From Terriglobia bacterium (GTDB taxonomy: Bacteria > Acidobacteriota > Terriglobia > UBA7540), in contig JASHON010000073.1 of assembly GCA_030041095.1 (NCBI GenBank), positions 62,001-126,000 on the forward strand: 64,000 nt of DNA. The letters run 5' to 3'. Below the pieces are notes generated by a model. It worked only from the letters and a program-made list of their open reading frames with translations, was not told the DNA's origin and ran no database searches. The position numbers and the translations under genes were made by a program. Shown piece by piece: positions 1,197 to 6,121 of the stretch; positions within the stretch are counted from its first letter, which is position 1; the number at the start of each line of letters is the position of its first letter.

Positions 1197-2333
1197 TCAC
1201 CGTCGAAACAGCTTCGCATACTGCTGTTCCAGAAAGTTATCGGTCATGCCTGCAATATAGTCGCAAACCACCCGAGCCACAGGCTGCTGCTTTGTCTGGG
1301 CAAAGTAATAGGGTGGAAGGGCGCGCGGCCGGCCCAGATAGTATTCGAACAGGCGCTGGAGATGAATGACAATCCGGCGACGCTCGCGGCTGACCTCTGG
1401 ATGGGAATAGAGCCGGCGCTTAAGGAACGACTTGAGGCGATGAATCTCTTCTCCCAGCCGCGGACTCAAACCGGCCTGTCTGGCTTTCAGCTCGCGGATC
1501 CGCGCTGCGGACCGCACCTTTTGCTTCTGCAGCCGCTGGCGGGTCGCGGCAATCAGGTCCGAGACGAAGCAGTCCACGAGGCCACGTAGCGCTTCGTTAA
1601 AGCGGAGCTTCTCACTCTGCTGCGGGTGTTTTTTCTCAATGGGATGAATGAGCCGTTGGAAGAGCGGAACGTTATCACAAATCAACCGCAAGTCAAGGAG
1701 ATTGGATTCAAATCCATCATCGAGGTCAGCGCAACTATAGGCAATTTCATCCGCAGGGTCGATCAACTGGGCTTCGAGCGGTGGCCGCTCGTCCAGCCGG
1801 TATTCACTAAGCTCCGGATAGAGGTCGGCATCGTAATCGCGGGAGTGCTTGACGATTCCTTCGCGTACCTCGAACGTGAGATTCAGACCCGGAAAAGAAA
1901 TGTATTTCTGCTCGAATTGTTCCACAATCCGCAAGGCGTGAAGGTTGTGGTCGAACCGGTCGTGGTGTGCCGTCATCAGGCGGTTAAGCAATTCCTCGCC
2001 GGCGTGGCCGAAGGGAGGATGGCCCACATCGTGCACCAGCGCCAGAGCCTCGACTAAATCGACATTCAGATTCAGCGCACGGGCGATGGTACGGCTGATC
2101 TGAGCCACCTCAAGCGTGTGGGTGAGCCGCGTCCTGAAGTGATCGGAATATCGGCGCGCAAAGACCTGTGTTTTGTCCTCCAGCCGCCGGAAGGCTCGCG
2201 AATGCACGATCCGGTCACGGTCGCGCTCGTAATCGTTACGATAAGGATGTGCAGGCTCCTTGTACCGCCGCCCCAGTGACTCCGCAGCATTCATGGCGTA
2301 GCTGGCAAGGTTATTCCGGGGCCGGCTTTTCAT
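1197..2333 (-). CDS. dgt: deoxyguanosinetriphosphate triphosphohydrolase-like protein (HD domain)
   Basis: A 378-residue HD-superfamily phosphohydrolase. The N-terminal region has the dGTPase hallmark RDRDRIVHSRAFRRLEDKTQ followed by the HTLEVAQISRTIAR helix, the HD dyad in ALVHDVGHPPFGHAGE, and a later EIAYSCADLDDGF segment supplying the last metal-ligand Asp. Members hydrolyse dNTPs to the deoxynucleoside and triphosphate. The reading frame is open for 40 codons further upstream, but the start at 2333 is preferred: it has GGAG six bases before ATG, the upstream extension is not family-like, and the resulting length is normal. It is followed on the same strand by no close gene, so it is probably monocistronic. 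Confidence 0.92.
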   Translation of the reverse strand: MKSRPRNNLASYAMNAAESLGRRYKEPAHPYRNDYERDRDRIVHSRAFRRLEDKTQVFARRYSDHFRTRLTHTLEVAQISRTIARALNLNVDLVEALALVHDVGHPPFGHAGEELLNRLMTAHHDRFDHNLHALRIVEQFEQKYISFPGLNLTFEVREGIVKHSRDYDADLYPELSEYRLDERPPLEAQLIDPADEIAYSCADLDDGFESNLLDLRLICDNVPLFQRLIHPIEKKHPQQSEKLRFNEALRGLVDCFVSDLIAATRQRLQKQKVRSAARIRELKARQAGLSPRLGEEIHRLKSFLKRRLYSHPEVSRERRRIVIHLQRLFEYYLGRPRALPPYYFAQTKQQPVARVVCDYIAGMTDNFLEQQYAKLFRR

Positions 2334-2486: not shown

Positions 2487-4475
2487 CTAAGCGCCTGCTG
2501 GCGGGTTACTTGGCTTTAGCAGGGTGGCGAGGAACCAGTGCATCCCGAACGGATCCGTTACCCACGACATGCGCTCCCCATAAGGTTGGTCTGCGGGCTG
2601 GCGGACCGCCTTCGCACCCGCCTCGAGGGCTCGACGGTGCGTGGCGTCAACATCCGGAACAAAAAGGAAGATCGCACCCGGCATGGGCTGATACGGGCCG
2701 TGCGCTTCGCCCATCTCAATCATGGCGTCGCCCAGCCTGACCGACGCGTGACGGATCACTCCCGTCTCATCCGCATATCGAGCAACTTCCTCAGCGTCGA
2801 ACGCGCGTTTCAGGAAATCGATAACTTGAGAGGCGCTCCGGGGGTGCAGATAAGGCGTAACGCTGCGCAGCCCCTCCGGAACAGAGCGGCCGGCGAGCGG
2901 CGTCGCAAGATACCAATGGTTGCCGAAGGCGTCCTTGACGCTCGCTCCGCGCTCACCGTAGTCGTGGTCCGTGGGCTCGTTGAGTGAGGTCGCCCCGGCT
3001 GCAAGCGCGCGCCGGTAAACTCGATCCACGTTTTCCACATAACAATGCAGCGCGGCGGGAGTTTCGGGGTAAGGCATGTCCGGCGATCCCCCTAACATCA
3101 GCATCGAGTTTCCGATCCTCACTTCGGCATGCATGATGCCGCCGGACGGTCCCGGCTGCCGAAATGTTTCCGAAGCGTCGAATACGTCTTTAATGAAATC
3201 CATCAACTCGACAGATCGGCGTATGACGAGGTAAGGCGTTACTGAGGTGAATCCCTCGCGGCGCCAAGTAACCGCTTCACGCTCGGGAGCGGACAACTTG
3301 CTCGCTGCTTCCCTTTCTTGAATGAATGCCGCGGTGCGCCGCTCGATCTCTTCGCTCGTTACATCTTCGATATGTGAAGAAACGATCCAAACATGTCCGA
3401 ACGGATCCTGGAACTGGCCGGAGCGGTCTCCGTAGAATTGGTCTGCAACCGGACGCAGCACTTTTGCGCCCGCGGCAACTGCCGCCGCTGCAACTTCATC
3501 AACGTTGTCCGTGTAGACGTGGATTCTCACCGGTGTGCCTCCAACAGATTCCGGGCTGCGCCGGCCATAGCTGGGCGCCTCCCCGGCCAGCATGAGCACC
3601 GAATCCCCAAGCGTGAGCTCAGCATGCGCGATCCGGCCGTCGGGATCCGTCAGCCGCATCAACTCAGCCGCCCCAAACACGCGCTTGTAAAAATCAATCG
3701 CCTTGAGGCCGTCGCCTTCAATCAAGTAGGGCTGCACGGTTGGGAAGTTCTCGCGGACCTGCTTCACACGATCTTCCTGGAGCGGCATTGAGATGCCCCA
3801 GCGATGACCGAACGGGTCTTCAAGCAAGCCGTGCCGCTCTCCGTAATCCCGGTCTGCTACGGCAACAAGAACCTTCGCTCCGGCCGCAACCGCCCGGTTG
3901 GCCCAGGCGTCTGCGTCGTCAACGTAAAGGTGAATCATGACCGGCGTGCCATCCAACGATTGCGGGCTCACGGTCCCGGATTCAGGAAATTCGTCTGACA
4001 GCATGATTCGAGAGTCACCGAGCTGGAGTTCGGCGTGGCCTATTTTGCCGTCGGGCATGCGCAAGCAGATCACTTCCTCCGCCCCAAACGCCTTCTTGTA
4101 AAATTCGATGGCCTCCGCCGCGTCTCTCACAATGAGATACGCTGCAACGGCACGATGGCCCTCAGGCACCGGACGGACTTTGTCCCCCTGGGGGGCTTTC
4201 TGCGCTGTACTTTGCATCAGTAGTCTCCTTTCAAGCTCAGCCTTAAGATTCATTCGAAAACCCTCGCGAGGCAGGCCGGCGAGGTCGCGCGCAATAACCA
4301 GAATCTGTTCCAGCCGACTGCTTGTCCCGCGCTGCGCGGGCCGGACAGACTCGTAGAACCGTTCTGCCGCCAGGCGCCCCGAGATCGTTGCGTCAGCCTC
4401 GCCGGCCTTCCTGCGTGCCGCCAGGAACGATTCGATCGCGGCGTCGAGTTGTTCGCTGAGAGGGAGTTTAGCCAC
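2487..4475 (-). CDS. tandem four-domain VOC (glyoxalase/bleomycin-resistance, PhnB-like) protein with N-terminal helical segment
   Basis: About 662 residues. Residues 1-95 form a charged helical segment ending in a PREGFRMNLKAELERR motif, like short N-terminal domains I recall in partner proteins of ECF sigma factors. Four PhnB-type VOC domains follow at roughly 105-235, 245-370, 410-535 and 540-655; each starts with a PYL strand and a DFxK/EFYKKAFGA helix and ends with a DPFGxxW or DAFGNHW signature. VOC domains bind metal and small hydrophobic or toxic molecules; no substrate can be named. Two GTG codons compete for the start. The one at 4481 abuts GGGGAGG, while that at 4475 has it five bases upstream, so 4475 is chosen. 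The gene overlaps the ECF sigma gene by 8 bases, indicating translational coupling. Confidence 0.85.
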   Translation of the reverse strand: MAKLPLSEQLDAAIESFLAARRKAGEADATISGRLAAERFYESVRPAQRGTSSRLEQILVIARDLAGLPREGFRMNLKAELERRLLMQSTAQKAPQGDKVRPVPEGHRAVAAYLIVRDAAEAIEFYKKAFGAEEVICLRMPDGKIGHAELQLGDSRIMLSDEFPESGTVSPQSLDGTPVMIHLYVDDADAWANRAVAAGAKVLVAVADRDYGERHGLLEDPFGHRWGISMPLQEDRVKQVRENFPTVQPYLIEGDGLKAIDFYKRVFGAAELMRLTDPDGRIAHAELTLGDSVLMLAGEAPSYGRRSPESVGGTPVRIHVYTDNVDEVAAAAVAAGAKVLRPVADQFYGDRSGQFQDPFGHVWIVSSHIEDVTSEEIERRTAAFIQEREAASKLSAPEREAVTWRREGFTSVTPYLVIRRSVELMDFIKDVFDASETFRQPGPSGGIMHAEVRIGNSMLMLGGSPDMPYPETPAALHCYVENVDRVYRRALAAGATSLNEPTDHDYGERGASVKDAFGNHWYLATPLAGRSVPEGLRSVTPYLHPRSASQVIDFLKRAFDAEEVARYADETGVIRHASVRLGDAMIEMGEAHGPYQPMPGAIFLFVPDVDATHRRALEAGAKAVRQPADQPYGERMSWVTDPFGMHWFLATLLKPSNPPAGA

Positions 4476-5022
4476 CCGCACCTCCCCTCTTGCTTCCCAT
4501 TTGCACGCGAAGGTTTTCGAGCGCTCGGAACTGGAGCTGCTTCACGGCGCCTTCGCTGCGGCCTATTTCATTCGCAATCTCGCGGATGCTCTTCTCTTCC
4601 ATGAAGCGCATCTCCACCACCCTGCGCTGGTTTGTGGGAAGGGAGCTCACTAACCGAAAGAGCCTGGCGCGCCCTTCGATCCGGTCAAGATCGGGAGGCA
4701 GGGCGTGCTCCACAGGATCGCCGGCGTTAGCGGCTCCGCGCTCGCGTGCCTGCTGCTGGGCGTGGTCAACGATAGCGTTTGCCGCGATGCGGAAGAGCCA
4801 CGAGACGAACGGCGCGCCACGCCATTCGAACGTGCTCAGCTTGGCGAGCGCCTTTTGAAAAACCTCGGAGGTAATATCCTCTGCCTGAGCTCGATTGCGC
4901 ACACGGCATTCGACGAACGCGTAGACGCGCCCGAAGTGGGCCTCATACAGGTCCGCAAACCGACTCGGATCCTTCTGGGCTGCCTCAATCAGAAGCTGCT
5001 CTTCAGCTTCCAGCGTTTTCAA
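4468..5022 (-). CDS. ECF-type RNA polymerase sigma factor
   Basis: 184 residues with the two-domain ECF layout. Region 2 spans about 20-95 (FADLYEAHFGRVYAFVECRV, AEDITSEVFQKAL, FVSWLFRIAANAIVDHAQQ) and region 4 about 120-178 (SLPTNQRRVVEMRFMEEKSI, IANEIGRSEGAVKQLQFRAL, the -35-binding helix-turn-helix). It would direct RNA polymerase to a small regulon. The start is TTG at 5022, with an AGGTGAGG about eight bases upstream; there is no earlier start in frame. Its 3' end overlaps the multi-VOC gene, so that protein is a plausible modulator or target. No zinc-finger anti-sigma (HxxxCxxC) or membrane anti-sigma gene is adjacent. The ECF subgroup was not determined. Confidence 0.93.
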   Translation of the reverse strand: MKTLEAEEQLLIEAAQKDPSRFADLYEAHFGRVYAFVECRVRNRAQAEDITSEVFQKALAKLSTFEWRGAPFVSWLFRIAANAIVDHAQQQARERGAANAGDPVEHALPPDLDRIEGRARLFRLVSSLPTNQRRVVEMRFMEEKSIREIANEIGRSEGAVKQLQFRALENLRVQMGSKRGGAGG

Positions 5023-5077
5023 GCCTTTGGCCTCACCTACGAAGCTTCATGAGTAAAACGGCGGGATCGGGAAAAGG

Positions 5078-6121
5078 TTACGGATGCTTCGGAAGCGCGT
5101 ACGTTCCCGCAGCCTCTGCCAACGACGGAGCCTGCTCACCCTCATGCAAGGAAGGGTAGGCATTCGCCAAGCCAAAGACTTCTGCCGAAAGCAGGACCAA
5201 AGTGATCCAGATGAGGTCAGCAGTCAGGAGGTGAAGCAGTTGCATCCACAGCGGTGTGAGAGACAAAACATTGATCAGGCCAAACATGAACTGCAAAGCC
5301 ACCAGACCCAGCAGCCATCCAGCCAACCGCTTCGAGGCCGCGCTCGTTGCCGTGCTGAGAGCATAAACCGCAAGCGCCACCAACAGGCTGCCCAGCAAGA
5401 CCGCCATCACCGGATGGATGATCCGCAAGCGCACGATAGGACTGGGAGCATTCGAAAAATCCCAACTGAAGCCTTGCGCAAGCGACCGCGCGGGAAAGAG
5501 CGTATCCGCAAGCGCCGTGAGCGTGCCCGTGATCGCAATAACGAGCATCCCAGCCAAGCCCGCGCCGTAAGCAAAATAGATTGCTGTCTTCCTTTCAGGC
5601 ATGCCGCCTTCGGATTCCGATGGTTCGCGTAACAGCCCAGAATGTCGCATCTTGCCGGCAGCCCACGCGACAAGGGCGATTGAAGCAAGCAGGAGAAAAG
5701 TATTGACGAGATGCAACGAGAGGATAACTACCCTTCCCATGGAAACGCGGTCTCCCACCTCTCCGAACAAGACGAGCGCAGCTCCTACCAACCCTTCCGT
5801 TATCGTGAAAAAGCCCGCAGCCGCTGCAAGCCGCCGGACGAGTTCTCCCCGCTCAAACCGCCGGAATGCAAGATAAACCAATCCCGCTACCAGCAGCACG
5901 TCAACCCCGCTGCTGGCCCGGTGTGAAAACTCGATCAAGGTAGCCAGCTTCTGGATCCGAGGAATCAAATTGCCGCCACAGAGCGGCCAGTGGTCACCGC
6001 AGCCGGCGCCGGAGCCCGTCGAGCGCACCACCGCTCCCCATAAAATCACCGCGACGTTGTAACCCAGCACGATCCAGGCGTATCGGGCGAAGGTCTTCGG
6101 AAACTTGCCCGTTGGGTTCAT
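5078..6121 (-). CDS. ctaA: heme A synthase, COX15/CtaA family
   Basis: 347 residues, eight predicted membrane helices. The N-terminal half has the family motif VRSTGSGAGCGDHWPLCGG with its Cys pair, then EFSHRASSG carrying a heme-ligand His, and SLHLVNTFLLL. The C-terminal half repeats the pattern with RIIHPVMAVLLGS and LLHLLTADLIW. These four His are the expected heme B/heme A axial ligands. CtaA oxidises the C8 methyl of heme O to make heme A for cytochrome c oxidase. GTG at 6124 could also start it; ATG at 6121 gives the usual MNPTGKF-type leader. It is on the same strand 55 bases upstream of the ECF sigma gene. No ctaB or cox genes are in view. Confidence 0.95.
   Translation of the reverse strand: MNPTGKFPKTFARYAWIVLGYNVAVILWGAVVRSTGSGAGCGDHWPLCGGNLIPRIQKLATLIEFSHRASSGVDVLLVAGLVYLAFRRFERGELVRRLAAAAGFFTITEGLVGAALVLFGEVGDRVSMGRVVILSLHLVNTFLLLASIALVAWAAGKMRHSGLLREPSESEGGMPERKTAIYFAYGAGLAGMLVIAITGTLTALADTLFPARSLAQGFSWDFSNAPSPIVRLRIIHPVMAVLLGSLLVALAVYALSTATSAASKRLAGWLLGLVALQFMFGLINVLSLTPLWMQLLHLLTADLIWITLVLLSAEVFGLANAYPSLHEGEQAPSLAEAAGTYALPKHP

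Follow-up and report, generated by a model that had tools for sequence, protein, structure and literature searches.

An ECF sigma factor and a second protein encoded by an overlapping gene probably form an autoregulated switch in a soil-type member of the Acidobacteriota, with the second protein acting as a soluble anti-sigma factor of the RsbN class and its array of VOC domains as the likely ligand sensor. Both genes are located on the minus strand of a stretch of 64,000 nucleotides that was analysed as a whole and is referred to here as the window. The pair and its surroundings are made up as follows:

6124-5078, CtaA-like gene, upstream neighbour of the pair, named from the look of its sequence only
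4468..5022, minus strand, BldN-like ECF sigma gene, 184 aa, TTG start, Pfam PF04542 and PF04545
4481..4487, minus strand, Shine-Dalgarno-like purine-rich GGGGAGG inside the sigma gene, 5 nt ahead of the GTG start of the second gene
4468..4475, minus strand, 8-nt gene overlap GTGGCTAA, containing the second-gene start and the sigma stop
4475 (GTG start) to 2487 (end), minus strand, second gene, 662 aa, helical N-terminus and four VOC domains
2453-1197, HD-domain dGTPase-like gene, downstream neighbour of the pair, likewise named from its look only

The initial annotation had described an ECF sigma gene overlapping a gene for a 662-residue protein whose N-terminus is helical and which contains four VOC domains, and this arrangement is borne out by the 8-nt overlap, in which the sigma stop codon TAA (4468-4470) falls among the opening codons of the second gene, and by four Glyoxalase domains (PF00903, E 7e-53) that Pfam recognizes in the second-gene product. 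The proposed start at 4475 is backed not only by the GGGGAGG sequence preceding the GTG but also by homologous pairs, as 11 out of 15 keep exactly the same 8-nt overlap of the form NTGNNTRA (ten were counted by script, and L013, ATGGCTGA, was added by eye). Homologous pairs of ECF and VOC genes with overlapping stops do recur, a point that the initial annotation had suggested checking. The second gene is probably translationally coupled to the sigma gene.

The sigma factor is closest to BldN. When a profile of the sigma family was compared with all PDB sequences, BldN (6dxo_A) came first with an E-value of 6.6e-35, the second-best being 8.3e-19, and the top match in NCBIfam was the BldN equivalog TIGR02952, with 124 bits and thus under the cut-off of 206 bits; identity to BldN orthologues is 31-32%. 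The VOC protein is therefore encoded directly 3' of a BldN-like ECF sigma factor. The sigma protein ends 12 residues past the region 4 match and lacks the long C-terminal extension of the ECF41 and ECF42 types.

The N-terminal part of the VOC protein carries the link to a known anti-sigma factor:

4200..4475, minus strand, residues 1-92, RsbN/ASDIII-like sigma-binding domain, identified by profiles, hhalign and the best PDB match, 6dxo_D

Helices are predicted for residues 6-24, 26-44, 53-65 and 70-92, with an LPRE motif at 68-71; the helix 26-44 is an insert that is also found in L088 and L089, and the consensus helices read QLDxAxEAxLA, then LLxIAxELRDLP and then RxxFKxRLKxELxRR. An AlphaFold model (four sequences, mean pLDDT 68) contained the VOC folds and placed the N-terminal helices at low confidence. 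Pfam and NCBIfam gave no match above chance for the N-terminal ~92 residues, and a Pfam match to SutA-RBD with an E-value of 0.09 was taken as chance. A profile of the segment searched against all PDB sequences had 6dxo_D as its top match, at an E-value of 0.089 that alone is not significant; this chain and the best match of the sigma factor, 6dxo_A, are partners in one and the same crystal. Chain D is RsbN, because its homologues sit just 3' of BldN-like sigma genes. The PDB entry itself labels chain D as BldN, by sequence it is the anti-sigma factor, and the names BldN and RsbN are swapped in PMC7406223.

Among 296 Actinomycetota genomes, the top match of the N-terminal profile (E 5.3e-4) was the N-terminus of a membrane protein encoded directly 3' of an ECF sigma gene; a sigma gene adjoins L142 alone among the seven weak matches in this phylum, and the other six were set aside. 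Many of the partners of BldN-like sigma factors sampled in the Actinomycetota are membrane proteins in which DUF5667 is frequent (of six partners that were scanned, four were above the cut-off, one was below it and one had no match), and their N-termini share the layout of the segment. One such DUF5667 partner (L164, 249-1403, minus strand) apparently has two sigma-binding domains in tandem. Alignment with hhalign of the N-terminal profile against 13 partner N-termini gave a probability of 94.4 and a score of 38.6, compared with at best 13.8 for 200 column-permuted decoys, up to 13.7 for reversed profiles and up to 12.5 for windows from the sigma factor. A single RsbN sequence is matched weakly (probability 8), and the link to RsbN thus runs via intermediates. 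The VOC protein reaches a maximum 19-residue hydropathy of 1.05, against 1.5-2.35 in the DUF5667 partners, contains no stretch hydrophobic enough for a membrane helix and, according to Pfam, no DUF5667. It therefore shares the RsbN domain and is not an orthologue of RsbN. RsbN defines the class III anti-sigma domains, in which sigma region 4 is held by helices 1-2 and region 2 by helix 3 (PMC7406223; PMC8103513). By homology, residues 1-92 may bind and inhibit the sigma factor in the way RsbN does. The idea of a soluble anti-sigma-like N-terminus, put forward in the initial annotation, is thus strengthened by profile-profile homology to RsbN/DUF5667 proteins, by the pairing with a BldN-like sigma factor and by the missing transmembrane stretch. 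Could the segment resemble RsbN by chance or convergence, with the sigma factor being controlled in another way, for example at the level of transcription alone? Such a view would fit a segment that is short and charged and consists of helices, as well as the modest PDB match and the lack of a Pfam match, but a profile-profile score slightly under three times that of any decoy, the fact that sigma type, promoter type and gene order agree independently of one another, and the joint occurrence of segment and sigma factor in all 15 intact cases make it very improbable.

The same relationship is apparent in the region upstream of the pair, where we find a predicted self-regulated promoter:

5077..5082, minus strand (read 5082 to 5077), -35 element CGTAAC, conserved upstream in 15/15 loci
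5054..5060, minus strand, -10 element CGTTTTA, 16 nt past the -35 element, spacing conserved

A CCGTAAC-YTTT sequence precedes all 15 sigma genes at a short distance, with one base off within CGTAAC at each of L009, L013, L091 and L121, and the spacer from CGTAAC to NGTT is 16 nt long in 13 loci and 17 nt long in two. With a matrix built from 12 other loci, the site scores 30.0 bits and the runner-up in the 64 kb window 14.6. The published BldN site is CGTAAC-N16-CGTTGA (PMC2375139); the site in the window, CGTAAC-N16-CGTTTT, equals it in the -35 box and the spacing and differs in the last two bases of the -10 box. These matches suggest that the sigma factor autoregulates its own operon. In the genome from which the window stems, the strict motif occurs once, at the operon itself. 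Across 16 genomes it has 14 matches, compared with 13 for a reversed-pattern control; 11 of the 14 lie at the sigma gene of the module itself, and no sigma gene is present at the remaining three (L183, L185 and L191). Allowing one mismatch in four genomes gave matches no commoner than the control, and we therefore claim no further regulon target. CGTAAC-N16-CGTT also stands directly 5' of the genes for BldN-like sigma factors with DUF5667 partners in L157 and L159, which suggests that this promoter type is common to the wider BldN-like family.

Including the window, 15 pairs are now on record, since a sigma gene followed by a gene for the same N-terminus and two to four VOC domains is present in 14 more Acidobacteriota genomes. 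The N-terminal profile had matches in 10 of 396 genomes from this phylum, namely the window's own, six with further complete modules, one with a truncated module (L124) and two with ferritins (L125 and L126 in G357 and G418) that are false positives; the module is therefore rare and scattered within the Acidobacteriota. Eight further loci with sigma gene and N-terminus were obtained by a whole-protein search covering one genome per species and relatives. Run without a positive control, the profile had a single partial match in 246 Planctomycetota genomes, in a frame of 1191 residues, and none in 349 Pseudomonadota genomes. Homologues away from a sigma gene would have spoken against the proposed partnership; all homologues whose N-terminal segment is intact (15/15) adjoin one. 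At 80 loci chosen by VOC similarity, 81 frames with a single VOC domain had a sigma gene nearby only in the case of the VOC gene situated downstream in module L009, and the three proteins that possess the N-terminal segment are all near a sigma gene. L008 (4049-4888, plus strand) encodes the one two-VOC protein among these loci that lacks the sigma-binding domain; it resembles the core pair described below and has no sigma gene nearby. In the truncated module L124 (G141:C1, ~1390-1710, minus strand), which encodes a three-VOC protein, neither the sigma gene nor helix 1 of the sigma-binding domain is present, and a -35-like remnant, CCGTAACTTTTTGGG, stands directly ahead of helices 2-3. L124 is apparently a deletion and one natural case in which the sigma factor and helix 1 were lost together.

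The remainder of the protein belongs to the VOC superfamily on account of its four PF00903 modules and of fold matches, and comprises the following domains:

3777..4154, minus strand, VOC domain 1, PhnB-type
3363..3746, minus strand, VOC domain 2, PhnB-type
2889..3251, minus strand, VOC domain 3, "core A", shared by all the ASD-VOC proteins found
2514..2870, minus strand, VOC domain 4, "core B" (GEAHGPYQPMP), likewise shared by all of them

In a domain tree, domains 1 and 2 group with free-standing PhnB proteins and domains 3 and 4 fall into two separate core clades (the placement of L092_1 is ambiguous). The original assignment of all four domains to the PhnB type is thus retained for the first two and abandoned for the last two. 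The number of PhnB-type domains per ASD-VOC protein is 0, 1 or 2; L118, L122 and L009 have a separate PhnB gene just downstream, and L009 and L120 an additional C-terminal VOC-like stretch. As the core pair occurs in every protein and the PhnB count varies, it is the core pair that constantly accompanies the sigma-binding domain. Core A keeps His41 and His69, core B is without His69. The nearest solved VOC relatives, TioX, Rv0577 and glyoxalases, do not point to a ligand, and the matches among enzymes include maize glyoxalase I and HPPD. Small molecules are typical ligands of the VOC fold, and it is plausible that the VOC domains sense one; we infer that it may be a toxic one, as had been proposed. 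An enzyme would account for the conservation of the VOC core equally well. The VOC protein might indeed be dioxygenase- or glyoxalase-like and the main product of the regulon, with an N-terminus that tethers it to the sigma factor and a VOC part that does not gate. VOC folds often are enzymes, as illustrated by the two just named, the two histidines of core A are conserved, the extra PhnB domains vary and come either fused or as separate neighbour genes, and the strict promoter motif is found only at the module's own operon in the genome. We nevertheless consider this explanation rather unlikely, because His69 is missing from core B, because a sigma-binding domain would be superfluous for an enzyme and yet is present in all 15 sigma-paired proteins, and because VOC proteins devoid of this domain have no sigma gene nearby.

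Comparison with established systems places the pair closest to BldN-RsbN of Streptomyces (ASDIII), with which it shares the closest sigma factor, a homologous N-terminal helical domain with the motif A-x-x-L-x-x-LP, the gene order and the promoter CGTAAC-N16-CGTT. RsbN, however, is membrane-anchored and has a DUF5667 region, whereas the VOC protein is soluble and has VOC domains, and the genes overlap in the window, whereas those for BldN and RsbN are separated by an intergenic gap. The best reading is therefore one of the same brake and promoter type combined with a different sensor and cell compartment. Soluble zinc anti-sigma factors of the ChrR type (ASDI/ZAS) sense cytoplasmic signals as well. 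They differ from the VOC protein, in which Pfam shows no zinc anti-sigma match and which has only two cysteines, at positions 137 and 478, neither of them in the sigma-binding domain. A cytoplasmic domain of the small-molecule type is also linked to the ECF sigma factor in ECF41 and ECF56, with fused SnoaL, and in ECF42, with a TPR extension and DGPF/YCII neighbours (PMC8999054; PMC8103513), but there the extra domain resides on the sigma factor itself, whereas the window has a minimal sigma factor of 184 aa and a putative sensor on a second protein, one that contains a sigma-binding domain. TioX, Rv0577 and other VOC proteins have the VOC fold in common with the array, and for none of them is a sigma-binding domain reported here.

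We propose that the BldN-type sigma factor would direct transcription of its own operon from a promoter of the form CGTAAC-N16-NGTTTA and that the overlapping second gene would provide an anti-sigma factor binding it through a three-helix domain of the RsbN class (ASDIII-like), a cytoplasmic VOC array having replaced the membrane anchor and DUF5667 region of the RsbN relatives. On the model of RsbN, sigma region 4 would be held by helices 1-2 and region 2 by helix 3. When the core VOC pair binds a small ligand from the cytoplasm, this hold would weaken and the sigma factor would be freed, and more VOC protein would be made; that protein might in addition sequester the ligand or convert it, and bind the sigma factor again once the ligand is gone. 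What had been called a "one-gene sensor" is accordingly better worded as a sensor plus a brake in one gene. More tentatively, the operon itself may be the sole target of the sigma factor, such that the VOC array would combine sensor, brake and effector: it would bind or convert a small molecule and let go of the sigma factor, which would then drive its own production until the molecule has been mopped up. That the VOC protein instead acts positively on the sigma factor has a precedent in sigma-fused ligand-binding domains, which can be required for activity (PMC8999054), but in RsbN the homologous domain acts as an inhibitor (PMC7406223; PMC8103513), and we give positive action hardly any credence.

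No VOC-bearing anti-sigma factor was found in the literature searched, which did not include the 2021 ECF reclassification, and a mention in an ECF group table is possible. The RsbN-type anti-sigma domain is known from Streptomyces, where it belongs to a membrane protein involved in development. If our interpretation is true, such domains would be plugs of general use to which cytoplasmic ligand-binding domains can be fused, and a system this small, with two genes and one readable promoter, would lend itself readily to ligand screens and to service as an orthogonal switch. VOC domains, which are mostly described as enzymes or as proteins that bind drugs, would then gain a role in the control of transcription.
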